Below, one piece after another: positions 1 to 23,698 of a DNA stretch of 27,455 nucleotides (position 1 is its first letter; each line of letters opens with the position of its first letter). The notes beneath the pieces were generated by a model. It saw only the letters and a list, made by a program, of their open reading frames with translations. It was not told the DNA's origin and searched no databases. The stretch comes from a virus. The stretch covers positions 1 through 27,455 of the IMG/VR virus record IMGVR_UViG_3300042869_000358. One strand, 5' to 3'. The position numbers and the translations under genes were made by a program.

Positions 1-242
1 CCACTATTGACTACTACGTTAGAATCGGTGGCTCCAGTATAGTACCCTCCAGAATCGAGCTGGTCAAAGTCTATAGGAAGTGTAAAAAACTTACTAGATG
101 GGGTTGTGGGTCTATATCGGTAATTACCCAGTTTAAAGATGTTATCTGGCATGTTCATGTTCCACTCAGCCAAGACCAAACTCTGCAGCCTAACGGTCGC
201 TGATGCCTCTAGATGACCCTTCAGTGCCTCACTTACAAACAC
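1..242 (-). CDS. Putative minor tail protein, N-terminal part (cut by window edge)
   Basis: An open frame begins with GTG directly after the TAA of the upstream distal tail gene and stays open for 80 codons to the window edge. An AGAGGT ribosome binding site overlaps the end of the upstream gene, 4-5 nt before the GTG, so the two genes are probably translationally coupled. The N-terminus includes the stretch SLVLAEWNMNMPDNIFKLG. From memory, LAEWN-type N-termini occur in tail or receptor-binding proteins encoded after the tape measure in actinophages. Position, two genes after the tape measure, fits a baseplate or tail-tip component. Only about 80 residues are visible, so no domain can be assigned. 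An alternative start is one of two in-frame ATGs near residues 29 and 31, but these lack a comparable ribosome binding site. Confidence 0.7.
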   Translation of the reverse strand, partial: MFVSEALKGHLEASATVRLQSLVLAEWNMNMPDNIFKLGNYRYRPTTPSSKFFTLPIDFDQLDSGGYYTGATDSNVVVNS

Positions 243-14287: not shown

Positions 14288-14617
14288 TTAGTTATTTGCA
14301 AGTACTGTATTAAGCAAAGCGTTTGCATCTGAAAGTTTAACTCCAGAAGCTGCTTCAATAATGTTATATACAGTTGGTAAATCTAGAACTTCTTCTAATG
14401 CAGCAATGTCCTCTGCTAGTTCTGGTTTGTATTGCTTCATAGCAATCTGCACACATTCAACAAGAATGTTCATTGACTTCTCGTTGTTGTCTGCTACAGC
14501 TGCCACCTGTTCAAACTTACTCATAAATGGACGGAGCAAAGAAATCTTAAGTGGACGTACCTTAATCTTTGTACCATCAATCAGAGTTAGTTCTGTACCC
14601 TCTTGTGTATTTGCCAT
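14288..14617 (-). CDS. Tail assembly chaperone, short paralog (109 aa)
   Basis: A small acidic protein just upstream of the tape measure gene, the place of the G/GT assembly chaperones that hold the tape measure during tail polymerisation. It aligns along most of its length with the first half of the neighbouring 230-residue protein: shared GT, PLKI, LRxFM, LVECV, MKQYxPE, DxPTxY and GxK in the same order. It has no C-terminal T-type extension, and only 18 nt separate its stop from the tape measure ATG, so no frameshifted extension can exist. It has its own strong signals: AGGAGG 6-8 nt before the ATG and an extended -10 box TGCTATAAT upstream. I see a duplicated chaperone. The division of labour between the two copies is unknown. 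Confidence 0.85.
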   Translation of the reverse strand: MANTQEGTELTLIDGTKIKVRPLKISLLRPFMSKFEQVAAVADNNEKSMNILVECVQIAMKQYKPELAEDIAALEEVLDLPTVYNIIEAASGVKLSDANALLNTVLANN

Positions 14618-14623
14618 TTTTTA

Positions 14624-14631
14624 TTCCTCCT
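14624..14631 (-). promoter_or_regulatory. Strong ribosome binding site of the short chaperone
   Basis: AGGAGGAA on the coding strand ends 6 nt before the ATG at 14617. It is among the strongest sites in the window, suggesting high output of the short chaperone. Confidence 0.9.
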
Positions 14632-14646
14632 ATATAGGCTTAGTCA

Positions 14647-14655
14647 ATTATAGCA
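14647..14655 (-). promoter_or_regulatory. Extended -10 promoter before the short chaperone
   Basis: TGCTATAAT, a consensus extended -10 with no clear -35. The predicted RNA start near 14640 gives a leader of about 23 nt that carries the AGGAGG site. It would serve the short chaperone and the tape measure gene. Confidence 0.6.
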
Positions 14656-14666
14656 TAAAACGCTGC

Positions 14667-15359
14667 TCAGGTTAGGTTTTCGTAATCTAATCCCATGCCA
14701 ATTCCAAAGCCAGCTTTTTGTGCGTTTACTCCTTGAAGTGATAAAACATCATTAGAGTCTCCAGTTTGTCCACCACTAAAGACTCTTGCTTTCATGTCTT
14801 CCCACTCTTTTTGTCCTCTGTCTTTTCCGCTTTCTGCGTCAAGGTCAACACCTTGCATAGCAGCAAGAAATTTCTTTTCTGAATAGTCTAGATCTCTTAC
14901 TGCTTCTAACGTAATCATTAGTTCTGACATAGATAGAGATCTTTCTAGTTCTTCGTAATCTTTCCATATACCCAGCAAAAATACTTCAGACTCTAGTTTA
15001 GCTAAGTCTAATGTATCCCAGGTTTCCCCACTTTTTTCTGCTTGGTTCTTTACAGGTTCTTCAGATTTTTTATTTATCTTAATCCCAGCAGATATGTCTA
15101 GTACCTTATATATTGTTGGCATGTCAACATTGTCTTCTACATCTTCTACTGTTTTAGATATCTCAGGACAATATTGTTTCATGCAAACTCTTACACATTC
15201 TACAAGGGTACCAATAGCCTCATCATCATTTTTGGCATTTTTAATATCATCAAATGCCACCATGAACTCTCTAAGATACTTGATCTTAAGTGGAGATATT
15301 TCTAGCTCTGTCCCATTAAATAAATGAACATTTTCAGTCTTATATACTTTAGTTGCCAT
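14667..15359 (-). CDS. Tail assembly chaperone, long paralog (230 aa)
   Basis: The first half (residues about 10-95) is homologous to the 109-residue neighbour: GTE, PLKI, LREFM, LVECV, MKQYCPE, MPTIY and AGIKI. The second half (residues 110-230) is a distinct acidic domain (WDTLDLAKLESEVFLLG, then YSEKKFLAAMQG) of the kind usually added by a programmed frameshift in GT chaperones. Here both halves are in one frame. It lies directly after the tail-tube terminator. Its extended -10 box TGGTAGAAT ends 9 nt before the ATG and no ribosome binding site is visible, so the mRNA is probably leaderless or nearly so. A run of six A in AAT AAA AAA TCT at codons 96-99 could slip to a stop after about 99 residues. 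Confidence 0.85.
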   Translation of the reverse strand: MATKVYKTENVHLFNGTELEISPLKIKYLREFMVAFDDIKNAKNDDEAIGTLVECVRVCMKQYCPEISKTVEDVEDNVDMPTIYKVLDISAGIKINKKSEEPVKNQAEKSGETWDTLDLAKLESEVFLLGIWKDYEELERSLSMSELMITLEAVRDLDYSEKKFLAAMQGVDLDAESGKDRGQKEWEDMKARVFSGGQTGDSNDVLSLQGVNAQKAGFGIGMGLDYENLT

Positions 15360-15368
15360 TGAACTTCT

Positions 15369-15377
15369 ATTCTACCA
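15369..15377 (-). promoter_or_regulatory. Extended -10 promoter, leaderless type, before the long chaperone
   Basis: TGGTAGAAT lies between the U-tract of the terminator and the ATG. Nine bases separate the hexamer from the ATG, placing the RNA start within about 3 nt of the start codon. No Shine-Dalgarno sequence fits in the remaining leader. Confidence 0.6.
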
Positions 15378-15380
15378 TAA

Positions 15381-15411
15381 AACAGAAAAGCCCACCTCCG
15401 AAGAGATGGGC
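15381..15411 (-). terminator. Intrinsic terminator with UUCG loop after the tail tube gene
   Basis: On the coding strand 15411-15390 forms a 9-bp stem (GCCCATCTC pairing with GAGGTGGGC, one G-U pair) closed by a UUCG tetraloop, followed by UUUUCUGUU. It starts 19 nt after the tail tube stop codon. It would isolate the tail tube transcript from the chaperone and tape measure genes. Confidence 0.92.
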
Positions 15412-15430
15412 CATGCTGCTTGCTTAATAA

Positions 15431-16069
15431 TTAAGACAATGAGTCTCCGAAGGTACGATCAACGATCTTACCATATGAGCCAGATGCATCCTCTGGAAGT
15501 AGACGGAATGAAACTTCAAACATTGAAGCTTCGTCACGCTTTGCAGAAACTGTTACGTTCTCGATTGACAAGGCACGGTATGCTGTGTAAACACGCTCTA
15601 CATCTGCAGATGTGACACAATCACCTGTTCCTGGTCCGACAGCAACAATTCCACGCTCTACTGGACATTCGCCAAGTTCACCTGCAGAAAGGTTTAATAC
15701 CCGTCCTGTGTGGCTTAGCTTTGTTCCAGTTAGTTGGTCATCGCTAAAAGCAAGTGCTAGTAGCAAGTTTTCAAGTGTAGCTTCAGCAAAGGCTGTTGCA
15801 AGGTTAACTTGCATTCCTTGCTTGTAAAGCTTAGCAACGTCAAGAATCTGGTCAACTTGAACTTCACCGAAGTCAGGTTGGAACTGCATTTCAAGACCGT
15901 TCATTGTATAACCAACATTAGTATAAGCTGCATCATTTGAGAGAGTCTCTCTGAATGATACTTCGGTGCTAAATGATTCTAGTGTTGATGGGGTCAAAGT
16001 TGTGTCTGCAACGAATAGTGCAGCTGCTCCAACGATGATATTAGTTGAACTTCCACGGCTATATGACAT
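15431..16069 (-). CDS. Major tail (tail tube) protein
   Basis: A 212-residue soluble protein between the tail-terminator gene and the assembly chaperones, the standard place of the tube subunit. The sequence is beta-rich with a typical tube-protein feel: MNGLEMQFQPDFGEVQVDQ early, then LENLLLALAFSDDQ, and a C-terminal ASMFEVSFRLLPEDASG. Start: ATG with GAGGT 4-5 nt upstream. It has its own extended -10 promoter about 66 nt upstream and its own terminator directly downstream, consistent with a protein needed in many copies per virion. Its codons look less AT-biased than those of the neighbouring low-copy genes. No Ig-like C-terminal extension is present. The call rests on position plus fold-like pattern. 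Confidence 0.88.
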   Translation of the reverse strand: MSYSRGSSTNIIVGAAALFVADTTLTPSTLESFSTEVSFRETLSNDAAYTNVGYTMNGLEMQFQPDFGEVQVDQILDVAKLYKQGMQVNLATAFAEATLENLLLALAFSDDQLTGTKLSHTGRVLNLSAGELGECPVERGIVAVGPGTGDCVTSADVERVYTAYRALSIENVTVSAKRDEASMFEVSFRLLPEDASGSYGKIVDRTFGDSLS

Positions 16070-16134: not shown

Positions 16135-16143
16135 ATTATAACA
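16135..16143 (-). promoter_or_regulatory. Extended -10 promoter before the tail tube gene
   Basis: TGTTATAAT on the coding strand, with no clear -35. The predicted RNA start near 16128 gives a leader of about 60 nt that ends in an AGAGGT ribosome binding site. It lies in the 80-bp gap between the tail terminator and tail tube genes. Confidence 0.6.
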
Positions 16144-19139: not shown

Positions 19140-19148
19140 ATTATACCA
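19140..19148 (-). promoter_or_regulatory. Extended -10 promoter of the head-tail joining operon
   Basis: TGGTATAAT directly after the capsid terminator. The predicted RNA start near 19133 lies at the beginning of the AGGAGGG ribosome binding site, giving a leader of about 13 nt. It would drive the four TAATG-coupled joining genes. Confidence 0.65.
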
Positions 19149-20370: not shown

Positions 20371-20928
20371 TTAGTTGAATAGGTCGGTTGATGTGAGGAA
20401 ACGACCGCCCCATAGGGATTTTTGAACCTTAAGTGGTTCGAACTGTACGATCTCGCCTAGATCGCCAGACTTGCGGAAAGCTGTGTCTGCTACTACGTCA
20501 TCCACTCGCTTGCCAAACTCATCAAATGTTCCCTTAACTTCCTTAACCTCACTAGTTACGGATTCAAGAGACTTACTTAGTGTCATAATCTGCTCATGTA
20601 AAGATTTTACAGTTGAAGCGAGATCGCCAAAGGCATTAGTTAGAGAATCCTTAATGTCTGAAACTGCTTTAGCAATTTCTTCATTAGATGCTGTTGCATT
20701 TGCATCAAGGCTATCTGCCTTGTCTGCAGTATTCTCTACAGTCTCAGCTGCAGGTGCAACTGGAGACTCTGCACTACCATCAGATGATTCTACAGCAAGA
20801 GCTTTTTCAGCTGCTGGTGCTTCCTCAACTACTGCAGGTGTTTCTTGAACAACTGCTGGCTGTGCCTCTGGAGTAACCTCAACTTCTTCAACTGCAGATT
20901 CGACTGCTACTTCTGTTGCTTCTGTCAT
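20371..20928 (-). CDS. Nested scaffold protein from an internal in-frame start (185 aa)
   Basis: Within the protease gene, AAGGAGGT (20943-20936) lies 7 nt before an in-frame ATG at 20928, a spacing as good as any true gene start here. The product would begin MTEATEVAVESAVEEVEV and contain only the acidic linker and coiled-coil scaffold. This nesting is known from lambda C/Nu3-type systems, where scaffold is made in excess of the protease. The parent gene seems to lack a ribosome binding site while the nested start has a near-perfect one, which fits excess scaffold. The product itself is inferred. Confidence 0.72.
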   Translation of the reverse strand: MTEATEVAVESAVEEVEVTPEAQPAVVQETPAVVEEAPAAEKALAVESSDGSAESPVAPAAETVENTADKADSLDANATASNEEIAKAVSDIKDSLTNAFGDLASTVKSLHEQIMTLSKSLESVTSEVKEVKGTFDEFGKRVDDVVADTAFRKSGDLGEIVQFEPLKVQKSLWGGRFLTSTDLFN

Positions 20929-21681
20929 TGGATTTACCTCCTTAGTAATCTTAATTGTACTAATGCCTTTAGCACTATCAACTAAGAACTTTATCATATT
21001 TGCTTTTTCTAAATCATCTTTTTCAACAAAACCAATGTTCTTCATTTCTTGTCCAGTTGCAGGACTTACTTGTGTCTCTTCTTCAGAAACAATAACTAAT
21101 CCAGACTCTTTGTCATAGAATACATTTTCTAAAACAGTGTTATCTGCTTTAATCATATCTACACCATCAACCTTCTCAACTGACATAATGCTAGCAAATT
21201 GGTTTGCTGGACTATCAACAAGAGATAGCTCAATAAGGTCATAGTCCTTGATAATTCTAATTTGCTTTTCCATTGTATCATCATATGCGTCATCCCACTT
21301 GTTCATTCGTCCCCCGATTGAAAAACCAGTGTATGTACCATCAAGAACTTTTTCCCAAGCATCTTGGGCACCCTTAGAAATATAGGTAGAGACGTATACT
21401 CCCTTATAAAACTTCTTTGATTCTGGATCAAAATATTTTTCTTCTTTAAATGAGATCATTTTGCCAACAGCAGATGGTTGGTGCATTTCTCTAATGTTCC
21501 CACGAAATTTTGCAAAAGCACTCATGCTAGCTTCGGTAGTTACAATGTCCATTTGTTTGTCAACATTGTCTAGAGAGGCAAAACCTGAAACAAGTCTTCG
21601 TTCTTGATCTACCTTGCCAAAAGGCATTGATAGACGAACGTTGTCTCCGTCGGTAACCCAGGAAGCTTTATTTATATTCAT
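20371..21681 (-). CDS. Prohead maturation protease fused to scaffold (436 aa)
   Basis: Residues 1-170 are a U35/S78-type HK97 prohead protease. His67 lies in IREMHQPSAVG, Ser121 in YTGFSIGGRM, and the segment YDLIELSLVDSPANQFA (146-162) matches the conserved third motif. Residues about 252-436 are a scaffold-like domain: an acidic Ala/Pro/Val/Glu-rich linker, then a helical coiled coil (about 340-410) and the end SLWGGRFLTSTDLFN. The enzyme cleaves scaffold and capsid arms during maturation. The ATG at 21681 is preceded by TGGTATAAT with 9 nt between and no ribosome binding site, so a leaderless start is likely. A strong internal site allows a separate scaffold from Met252. Confidence 0.93.
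   Translation of the reverse strand: MNINKASWVTDGDNVRLSMPFGKVDQERRLVSGFASLDNVDKQMDIVTTEASMSAFAKFRGNIREMHQPSAVGKMISFKEEKYFDPESKKFYKGVYVSTYISKGAQDAWEKVLDGTYTGFSIGGRMNKWDDAYDDTMEKQIRIIKDYDLIELSLVDSPANQFASIMSVEKVDGVDMIKADNTVLENVFYDKESGLVIVSEEETQVSPATGQEMKNIGFVEKDDLEKANMIKFLVDSAKGISTIKITKEVNPMTEATEVAVESAVEEVEVTPEAQPAVVQETPAVVEEAPAAEKALAVESSDGSAESPVAPAAETVENTADKADSLDANATASNEEIAKAVSDIKDSLTNAFGDLASTVKSLHEQIMTLSKSLESVTSEVKEVKGTFDEFGKRVDDVVADTAFRKSGDLGEIVQFEPLKVQKSLWGGRFLTSTDLFN
20936..20943 (-). promoter_or_regulatory. Internal ribosome binding site for the nested scaffold
   Basis: AAGGAGGT inside the protease/scaffold reading frame, 7 nt upstream of in-frame ATG 20928. Confidence 0.85.
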
Positions 21682-21729: not shown

Positions 21730-23328
21730 TGATCTTCCTTCACCTTTAGGATTTCTTCCAGCAATAGTTGCTGGGCCATCTGACTGGTTATTGACTCTTT
21801 CTGTATCCCGTTGACGATTTGAAGTTGCATTTGATTGAGCATCATTTGCTTGTCCTGGAGACATTACAAAAGGTGTATCTCCGTCTTTAGTTTGTGGAAG
21901 ATCAAGAGCTTCTCTAGCCTCATTTGGCATCATGATCTGAGTCTTAACAAGACGTTCAAGAATTTGAGATTGAGCAATTTCATCTGTAAGAGTTAGCTCA
22001 TTAAACCTTAACTCTAGAATATCTGTTTTTTCTTTGATGATCTTATTGATAATCTTTTCAAGATGATGTTGTGCTGGTCGTGAAACTTGTTCTTTGAATG
22101 TGCGATCTTGAGACAAAGCTGCTGCGATACCAGAGTCAGAGCCACCAAGTTTAGAAATTGGAACCTGATGGGCAATTAGGATATCATCACGATTTTGCTT
22201 TCTATATTCTTTAAATGATCCGTCTTGAATACCATTTTCAATTGGCTCCATCTTAAACTCAACCTTGTTTTGATCTGTATCGCCAGGAAGTGGTATATAC
22301 AAAGTTCTATGGGATTGAGATTTTAGTCCAGTCTGCAAGAATCTAAACATATTATCTTCTGCATCTGCACTTAGCTTGGCACCCTTTAGAGTGATGATAT
22401 ATCGTGGTACCGCTTTATTTTCAAAGTAGTCAATATTGTATTGTGATGCTAACTTGTCACCAATCAAAGATGGGAAAGCAGCAACAATGTCTGGTACACC
22501 ATAAAATGTATTCAATGGTGAGTATTGCTTTAAATGAATAATCTCATTTGGTCTAGTATCTACAGTAACTGGGTTCTGGTTCTTAGCCCCAAAGTTTCTA
22601 AAGTAAACTACTTGCTGACCAATAATCTGAAGGAAGCCATCGTTTAGTCTACGAACACGAACAGTGGTCGCTGGAATATGACCTAGGTATCCGATGTCGC
22701 CTTCAACAGTTCTTCCTATTTCAATGAAACCATTTCCTGTTGCCTCTAAGTCTATATAAACCTTTTCCATAGTCTTTGTAAATGAGTCATCATCATTTAA
22801 ATTCTCTAGCCAATCACGAAGTTCAATCTTCATGCGCTCAATTCTCTTGCGAGCACGAGAAGAGGCTTGCTCATCACTTGAAGTTTCAAGGCGCAAAGAT
22901 GTTCTGTCTGAAATATCAAAACGGTATCCAAGACCTACAACATTTTCTACCTTAGCATCAATAGCAGCATGGTTAGCAAAAGATGTATCGTAAAAGTTTG
23001 CTAGCTCATACATGTTATATGGTGGAGTAATAATATCAAATAGACCATATCCATTTCGGTATACTGTTCCAGGATTAATACCCTTTGTTCCAGTACCATC
23101 TATTCCAGATGACTGAGCATTTGCTGAGTCTAGGTATGCTGGAGTCATTTCAGCAGCTTTGTTTAAAAGCCTGACAGTTCTTCTTTTAAAGTTTTGATTA
23201 ATACCACCAAGGTCTTTTAGATCATCCCATGTTTTATTAAATGGGTCTTGGGCATAGAAGATGTTTTCTTCTTCTTCTTGTGTATTTAGTTTTGCACTAA
23301 CGTAATCAGAATTATCCCTCATCGCCAT
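21721..23328 (-). CDS. Portal protein (535 aa)
   Basis: Forms the dodecameric channel at one capsid vertex for DNA entry and exit. The sequence fits the PBSX/HK97-like portal family: YELANFYDTSFANHAAIDAK near residue 105, EATGNGFIEIGR near 190, a wing region with IHLKQYSPLNTFYGVPDIV near 260, and the C-terminal helical part with HQVPISKLGG and RTFKEQVSRPAQHHLEKI. Length is typical. The start overlaps the upstream gene by 17 nt (ATG at 23328, with AAGGA a few nt upstream). A second ATG two codons later is equally well placed relative to AAGGA. The C-terminal about 40 residues are polar and low in complexity. Confidence 0.93.
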   Translation of the reverse strand: MAMRDNSDYVSAKLNTQEEEENIFYAQDPFNKTWDDLKDLGGINQNFKRRTVRLLNKAAEMTPAYLDSANAQSSGIDGTGTKGINPGTVYRNGYGLFDIITPPYNMYELANFYDTSFANHAAIDAKVENVVGLGYRFDISDRTSLRLETSSDEQASSRARKRIERMKIELRDWLENLNDDDSFTKTMEKVYIDLEATGNGFIEIGRTVEGDIGYLGHIPATTVRVRRLNDGFLQIIGQQVVYFRNFGAKNQNPVTVDTRPNEIIHLKQYSPLNTFYGVPDIVAAFPSLIGDKLASQYNIDYFENKAVPRYIITLKGAKLSADAEDNMFRFLQTGLKSQSHRTLYIPLPGDTDQNKVEFKMEPIENGIQDGSFKEYRKQNRDDILIAHQVPISKLGGSDSGIAAALSQDRTFKEQVSRPAQHHLEKIINKIIKEKTDILELRFNELTLTDEIAQSQILERLVKTQIMMPNEAREALDLPQTKDGDTPFVMSPGQANDAQSNATSNRQRDTERVNNQSDGPATIAGRNPKGEGRSSQ

Positions 23329-23698
23329 ACATCCTTAAAGTTTTCTGTGCTGCATCAATAGCACCAAGATCATTCAAAGAAGGAATTAATCCTTGCTTCA
23401 TTCTATCCTTTTGCTCTGAATATTCTTCTTCTGTTACCCTTGTCAATCCAGGAACAAAGACTGCCGTACCTTGACCATCATCTCCACAAGCGATTGCTTC
23501 TCTTTTTAGCTCGGCAATCTTACTTATGTCACCTTTTTGTGCAGGTATGTTTAAAACTGAGCCTGATCCGTCTGTAAACCATTTACCTGTTGATTTCTTA
23601 TATACATAAAGTCCCCAGTCATAATGCTTATCAATGACTTTTCTGCGTACGTTGTTGACAATAGGTTTACCAGTTTTTGGGTTTATTAATGAATCCAT
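23312..23698 (-). CDS. Small conserved-looking head-module protein (128 aa)
   Basis: I do not recognise a named family, though small proteins with an AQKGDISKIAELKREA-like segment recur, from memory, just upstream of portal genes in related phages. Visible parts: basic N-terminus (NVRRKVIDKHYDWGLYVYKK), a strand-turn with GKWFTDGSGSVLNIP, then helical segments and EEYSEQKDRMKQGLIPSLND. There is no membrane segment. The ATG is 7 nt after the extended -10 TGGTATACT, so transcription would start at or one base before the codon; a GAGG is also present but only 2 nt from the ATG. It overlaps portal by 17 nt, implying coupled expression. Role in head assembly is inferred from position. Confidence 0.7.
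   Translation of the reverse strand: MDSLINPKTGKPIVNNVRRKVIDKHYDWGLYVYKKSTGKWFTDGSGSVLNIPAQKGDISKIAELKREAIACGDDGQGTAVFVPGLTRVTEEEYSEQKDRMKQGLIPSLNDLGAIDAAQKTLRMYGDEG

Follow-up and report, generated by a model that had tools for sequence, protein, structure and literature searches.

A long and a short tail assembly chaperone gene in relatives of Stanwilliamsviridae: probable replacement of programmed frameshifting by gene duplication

Introduction

Among the recoding events of long-tailed phages, the G/GT frameshift in tail assembly chaperone expression is one of the most conserved, and in most tailed phages a single gene yields both forms through such a slip. How are the two chaperone forms provided at a locus where the long one lies in a single uninterrupted frame and a short one has a gene of its own 3′ of it? 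The question is posed by the window (the whole stretch of 27,455 nucleotides analysed here, from an IMG/VR virus record), for which an earlier note had proposed that gene duplication replaced the translational ratio switch. In lambda, as here, short and long forms have a common N-terminal domain (N-domain), and gpG exceeds gpGT by about 30:1 (PMC5009743). The lambda long form is, however, made by −1 frameshifting, whereas phages of the window's type have two genes, here called L (long) and S (short).

The gene pair and its identity

The order on the minus strand is tail-tube-like gene, L, S, tape measure gene (Table 1). The coordinates and frames that the earlier note gave for L and S are correct, as is its description of a long form without interruption and of a separate, downstream short gene with its own promoter and Shine Dalgarno sequence.

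Table 1. Features of the chaperone locus, in window positions
Feature	Position	Strand	Remarks
L, long tail assembly chaperone, 230 aa	14667..15359	-	one uninterrupted frame; the 246 complete relatives of the window's type all have the fusion
L domains	N-domain residues 1-~97, linker ~98-112, C-domain ~113-230	-	
S, short tail assembly chaperone, 109 aa	14288..14617	-	paralogue of the L N-domain; BFVD fold match
Extended -10 promoter box of S, TGCTATAAT	14647..14655	-	perfect extended -10; kept in relatives
Shine Dalgarno sequence of S, AGGAGG	14626..14631	-	in the 49-nt L-S gap
Extended -10 box of L, TGGTAGAAT	15369..15377	-	ends 9 nt before the ATG; no Shine Dalgarno sequence; leaderless mRNA predicted
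Intrinsic-terminator-like hairpin with T run	15389..15412	-	between the tail-tube-like gene and L
Upstream neighbour, tail-tube-like gene	15431..16069	-	in the place of the annotated major tail protein of Stanwilliamsviridae; PHROG 2175
Downstream neighbour, tape measure protein, 4461 aa	884..14269	-	PF10145, E 7e-24; same position in relatives

Pairwise alignment, named in advance by the earlier note as a test of its proposal, gave a similarity far beyond chance: BLASTP aligns residues 12–95 of L with 12–96 of S at 38% identity and 74% positives (E 2e-24). The claim that the shared N-domain extends along the full length holds for nearly all of S, though the first ~11 and last ~13 S residues are unaligned. 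PHROG 10504 is matched by L and S independently (1e-17 and 1e-23), and PHROG 10474 by the C-terminal part of L but not by S; the two products are thus a short form and a longer form with a common N-domain. Among similar pairs, median dN/dS is about 0.08 and 0.10 for the two genes, so that purifying selection acts on both, and S has its own core that hardly varies.

That L and S are tail assembly chaperones rests on several lines of evidence. They lie between the gene in the major tail protein position and the tape measure gene. The predicted structure of S (pLDDT 78) matches the BFVD entry A0A6J5QVP5, named ‘Tail assembly chaperone’, with E 2.7e-7 and TM 0.78/0.82; other BFVD proteins of that name stand lower in the S match list and are not significant. 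On the opposite side, no Pfam or NCBIfam chaperone model passed its cut-off for these proteins, a PDB sequence search with them gave nothing significant, and Foldseek against PDB found no significant match for either model (the HK97 chaperone 2ob9 appears among the L matches, at E 4.7, which is only suggestive). Set against this, the gene position, the existence of short and long forms, the frameshift in relatives described below, the annotation of cultured relatives and the BFVD fold match make it extremely improbable that L and S are something else. Since position, the two forms and homologue annotation agree, they are read as chaperones in what follows.

The tape measure protein of the window is longer than in any of 17 relatives of its type that were sampled (1963–3957 aa), and carries within it a cytidylyltransferase-like domain (PF01467, residues 730–859, E 8e-5).

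Relatives that frameshift

Cultured-phage matches found by tblastn come from Streptomyces phages only (127 records), and in these L aligns in two pieces over two ORFs. The cultured relatives examined that have a full taxonomy line belong to the Stanwilliamsviridae. In this family, represented by Streptomyces phages Braelyn, Coruscant and Circinus, the N- and C-domains are homologous to those of the window at about 41–46% identity and are encoded in the same place, between the major tail protein and the tape measure. Unlike the window, there is one N-domain gene with the C-domain in the −1 frame, a slip heptamer and no separate short gene. A low-GC freshwater sister group, recovered by a genome contig scan and by IMG/VR scans, has the same two-frame layout.

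The relation of the C-domain frame to the N-domain frame is −1 in all 57 unique frameshift loci, and each of them has, where the overlap begins, a slip heptamer in the correct register: CCCAAAC in 27, CCCAAAT in 14 and CCCGGAA in 16. Of these, CCCAAAC and CCCAAAT conform to the canonical X_XXY_YYZ pattern and CCCGGAA does not. [CCCGGAA is at the overlap in the Streptomyces phage Braelyn-type and IMG/VR relatives (loci L160–L162 and L169–L183), where its place and register match those of CCCAAAC/T in the sister groups.] A separate short gene was not detected in any of the 57, and the gene following the frameshift chaperone, where visible, is the tape measure gene.

The genome contig scan yielded one relative, CAINGU010000031.1 (locus L168). 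This 110-kb contig, binned as a cyanobacterial metagenome-assembled genome (MAG), has a phage-type structural module with a frameshifted chaperone; from its phage-like gene content it is probably a phage contig binned in a MAG, and its host is uncertain.

Two alternative states

Classification of 341 sequences gave 246 with a fused N- and C-domain gene followed by a separate N-domain gene, 88 with the N-domain followed by the C-domain in the −1 frame, and 7 left unassigned because they are cut by contig or locus ends. The loci partly overlap, as several queries lead to the same contigs, and all rates are therefore taken from unique counts; the 246 fused loci contain 168 unique L-S pairs. Every environmental relative of the window's type, a family of freshwater phages, that is complete has the fused L and the separate S. 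No locus among the 341 combines a frameshift with a separate short gene, and a fused gene that lacks a short one was seen only where the sequence ends. No intermediate between the two states was found. Relatives thus show either a frameshift without a short gene or a fused long gene with one, which is what replacement predicts, and the earlier proposal that duplication took over from a ratio switch gains support from it.

Might some short product still come from L, if its A-rich linker allows residual frameshifting or slippage, with S as a supplement? The linker of the window's L does have A6 runs. However, an in-frame X_XXY_YYZ heptamer of any kind is present in only 16 of 166 L linkers, and these are of seven kinds with none conserved, against one site kept in 57 of 57 frameshifting loci. 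Residual slippage is accordingly very unlikely. With one frame and no conserved slip site, L is not a frameshift-type chaperone of the lambda G/GT kind.

A different reading gives S another partner or task, for example one part of a very long tape measure protein, and leaves the canonical function to L alone or to L and S together. S has diverged from L as far as the frameshift N-domains have, and with its invariant core neofunctionalisation is conceivable. Moreover, tape measures of the window's type are often long, 1963–4461 aa compared with 1619–3054 aa in the sampled frameshift relatives. These ranges overlap, however, and the idea that tape measure length is tied to the duplicated state was dropped for that reason. 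The presence of S whenever the frameshift is absent, and the reverse, is better explained if S substitutes for the short form, and a specialised S is considered unlikely. [In one relative S seemed to be fused to the tape measure in a 3268-aa open frame; this was rejected, as the S stop codon is present in the DNA.]

Origin of the pair

An unrooted N-domain tree of 103 sequences and 108 columns places S in one clade (bootstrap 100/100) and the frameshift N-domains on one side of a branch (100/100). L is placed between these groups and is not resolved as a single clade (19% of bootstrap trees). Mean N-domain identity is 37.2 between L and S, 32.3 between the frameshift group and L, and 31.3 between the frameshift group and S. 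The distances of L and S from the frameshift group are alike, which argues against one copy merely having evolved faster. An independent origin of each protein, which the earlier note had named as the outcome that would count against its proposal, is not what the relatives show: L and S resemble each other more than either resembles the frameshifters. These relationships fit a single duplication that would have occurred in the window's lineage after its split from the frameshifting phages.

The tree being unrooted, the direction of change relies on −1 frameshifting being widespread in long-tailed phages (PMC5009743), from which the frameshifting state would be the ancestral one. The converse is that the fused, duplicated arrangement is older, and that the frameshifters lost S and gained a slip site, or that S came from another phage. 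The absence of a root and the similar length of the branches that set the three groups (L, S and frameshift) apart would allow this. But the wide occurrence of frameshifting speaks against it, as do a slip at the same position in both frameshifting groups and the finding that L and S are the closest pair with similar rates. A fused ancestor is, on this evidence, quite unlikely.

Start signals of S and L

If recoding no longer sets the proportion of the two forms, it is to the start signals that attention turns. Upstream of S, the TGnTATAAT box TGNTATAAT is present within 100 nt in all 168 unique relatives; the rest of the sense strand has it at 0.015 per 100 nt. With upstream sequences more than 85% alike removed, it is found 18–42 nt before the S ATG in 82 of 82, compared with 0.3 in dinucleotide shuffles. 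Both results show that the S promoter is not due to chance. In some genomes the box overlaps the last codon and stop of L, yet it is kept. A Shine Dalgarno sequence precedes S in 164 of the 168 unique and 78 of the 82 non-redundant relatives.

The upstream region of L is of another kind. Here an extended −10 sequence, TGNTANNNT, ends 5–9 nt before the ATG in 62 of 67 non-redundant relatives (0.9 in shuffles), and none of the 67 has a Shine Dalgarno sequence. A transcript starting ~6–7 nt after this −10 element would have its first nucleotide on or next to the L ATG, which predicts a leaderless message. Read from consensus, the L mRNA is thus probably leaderless. The L hexamer is more often TAGAAT, TATACT or TAAAAT than TATAAT (TATAAT in 23 of 168), so that, judged by the same consensus, the S promoter looks the stronger and the L box the weaker. 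As it requires a −35 hexamer, a generic sigma-70 scan picked up neither of the extended −10 boxes.

The hairpin upstream of L is also a feature of relatives (mean −19.9 kcal/mol, versus −8.4 kcal/mol for shuffled sequences), and no terminator was seen between L and S.

Frameshifting N-domain genes start in the manner of S, with a leader and a Shine Dalgarno sequence: the extended −10 is at 22–34 nt in 56 of 57 and a Shine Dalgarno sequence is present in 55 of 57, with no case of a leaderless-like start among them. The Stanwilliamsviridae differ from L in this respect too.

Similar signals occur elsewhere in the window. Two more genes of the structural region, at 23312–23698 (−) and 20371–21681 (−), have leaderless-like boxes (TGGTATACT and TGGTATAAT) 7 and 9 nt before their ATG, and this phage may use leaderless messages widely. 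Further TGNTATAAT boxes precede other late genes, at 19140–19148 and 16135–16143 (−), and have the same relative places in relatives, which suggests that the late genes have many separate promoters and do not form one long operon.

A proposed scheme for ratio setting without recoding

It is considered likely that L and S are the long and short chaperones of a siphovirus-like relative of the Stanwilliamsviridae, that they derive from duplication of a frameshifted pair, and that their ratio is now set at initiation. In this scheme an ancestral gene pair, whose long form was made by −1 frameshifting, would have been duplicated; one copy, fused in frame, would have become L, and the other, shorn of its C-terminal part, S. 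L would be transcribed after the terminator from a weaker extended −10 promoter, probably as a leaderless message. Its transcripts would also carry S, as there is no terminator between the two, and a consensus promoter in front of S, followed by a leader and a strong Shine Dalgarno sequence, would provide additional S. Being on both transcripts and having its own promoter and Shine Dalgarno sequence, S should exceed L. The short:long ratio would then probably be fixed by promoters and initiation, with no slip involved. By analogy with known chaperones, S would form a coat on the tape measure protein, and the C-domains of the few L molecules would bring in tail tube subunits.

A more specific version, to which we lean on balance, is that the recoding switch gave way, in one event and stably thereafter, to a transcript architecture made up of a leaderless L message from a weaker promoter, a nested consensus promoter and Shine Dalgarno leader for S, and long-first order, with S always in excess.

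Relation to known systems

According to the part of PMC10885494 that cites Vladimirov et al. 2022, some T4-like phages do not frameshift but have one short copy and a fused long one. S together with a fused L and no frameshift corresponds to that description, which is used here as a working analogy only. The T4-like phages are a different lineage; what can be shown for the window's lineage is that both start signals are conserved and that there are sister groups with homologous domains that still frameshift.

Microbacterium EA1 phages have been described as having ‘two separate’, separately expressed chaperone ORFs (PMC7302621, PMC11659878). In one of them, TeddyBear, there are, as here, two ORFs before the tape measure and no evident frameshift. 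However, its two chaperone proteins are not homologous to each other (E 6.2), and their genes (locus L361, 3688–4643) match two halves of PHROG 18843. TeddyBear thus has a split G and T without overlap and not a duplication as in the window, and the EA1 phages were ruled out as a precedent.

A literature search of incomplete coverage turned up neither a description of this arrangement in the lineage nor one of the contrast between leaderless and leadered starts. The principle is known from T4-like phages, at least as that source presents it, and the lineage and the promoter architecture appear new.

Implications

Among related phages whose chaperones are homologous, each has the frameshift or the gene pair, never both and never neither. 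This makes it testable whether the frameshift is merely a device for fixing a ratio, whose task promoters and ribosome binding sites can take over, and the conserved leaderless/leadered contrast offers a concrete mechanism to measure. It also provides an annotation rule for fused and short chaperones in uncultivated phages. If the reading is true, the pair would mark an independent departure from a frameshift that is among the most conserved in phages, with frameshifting sister groups available to compare.
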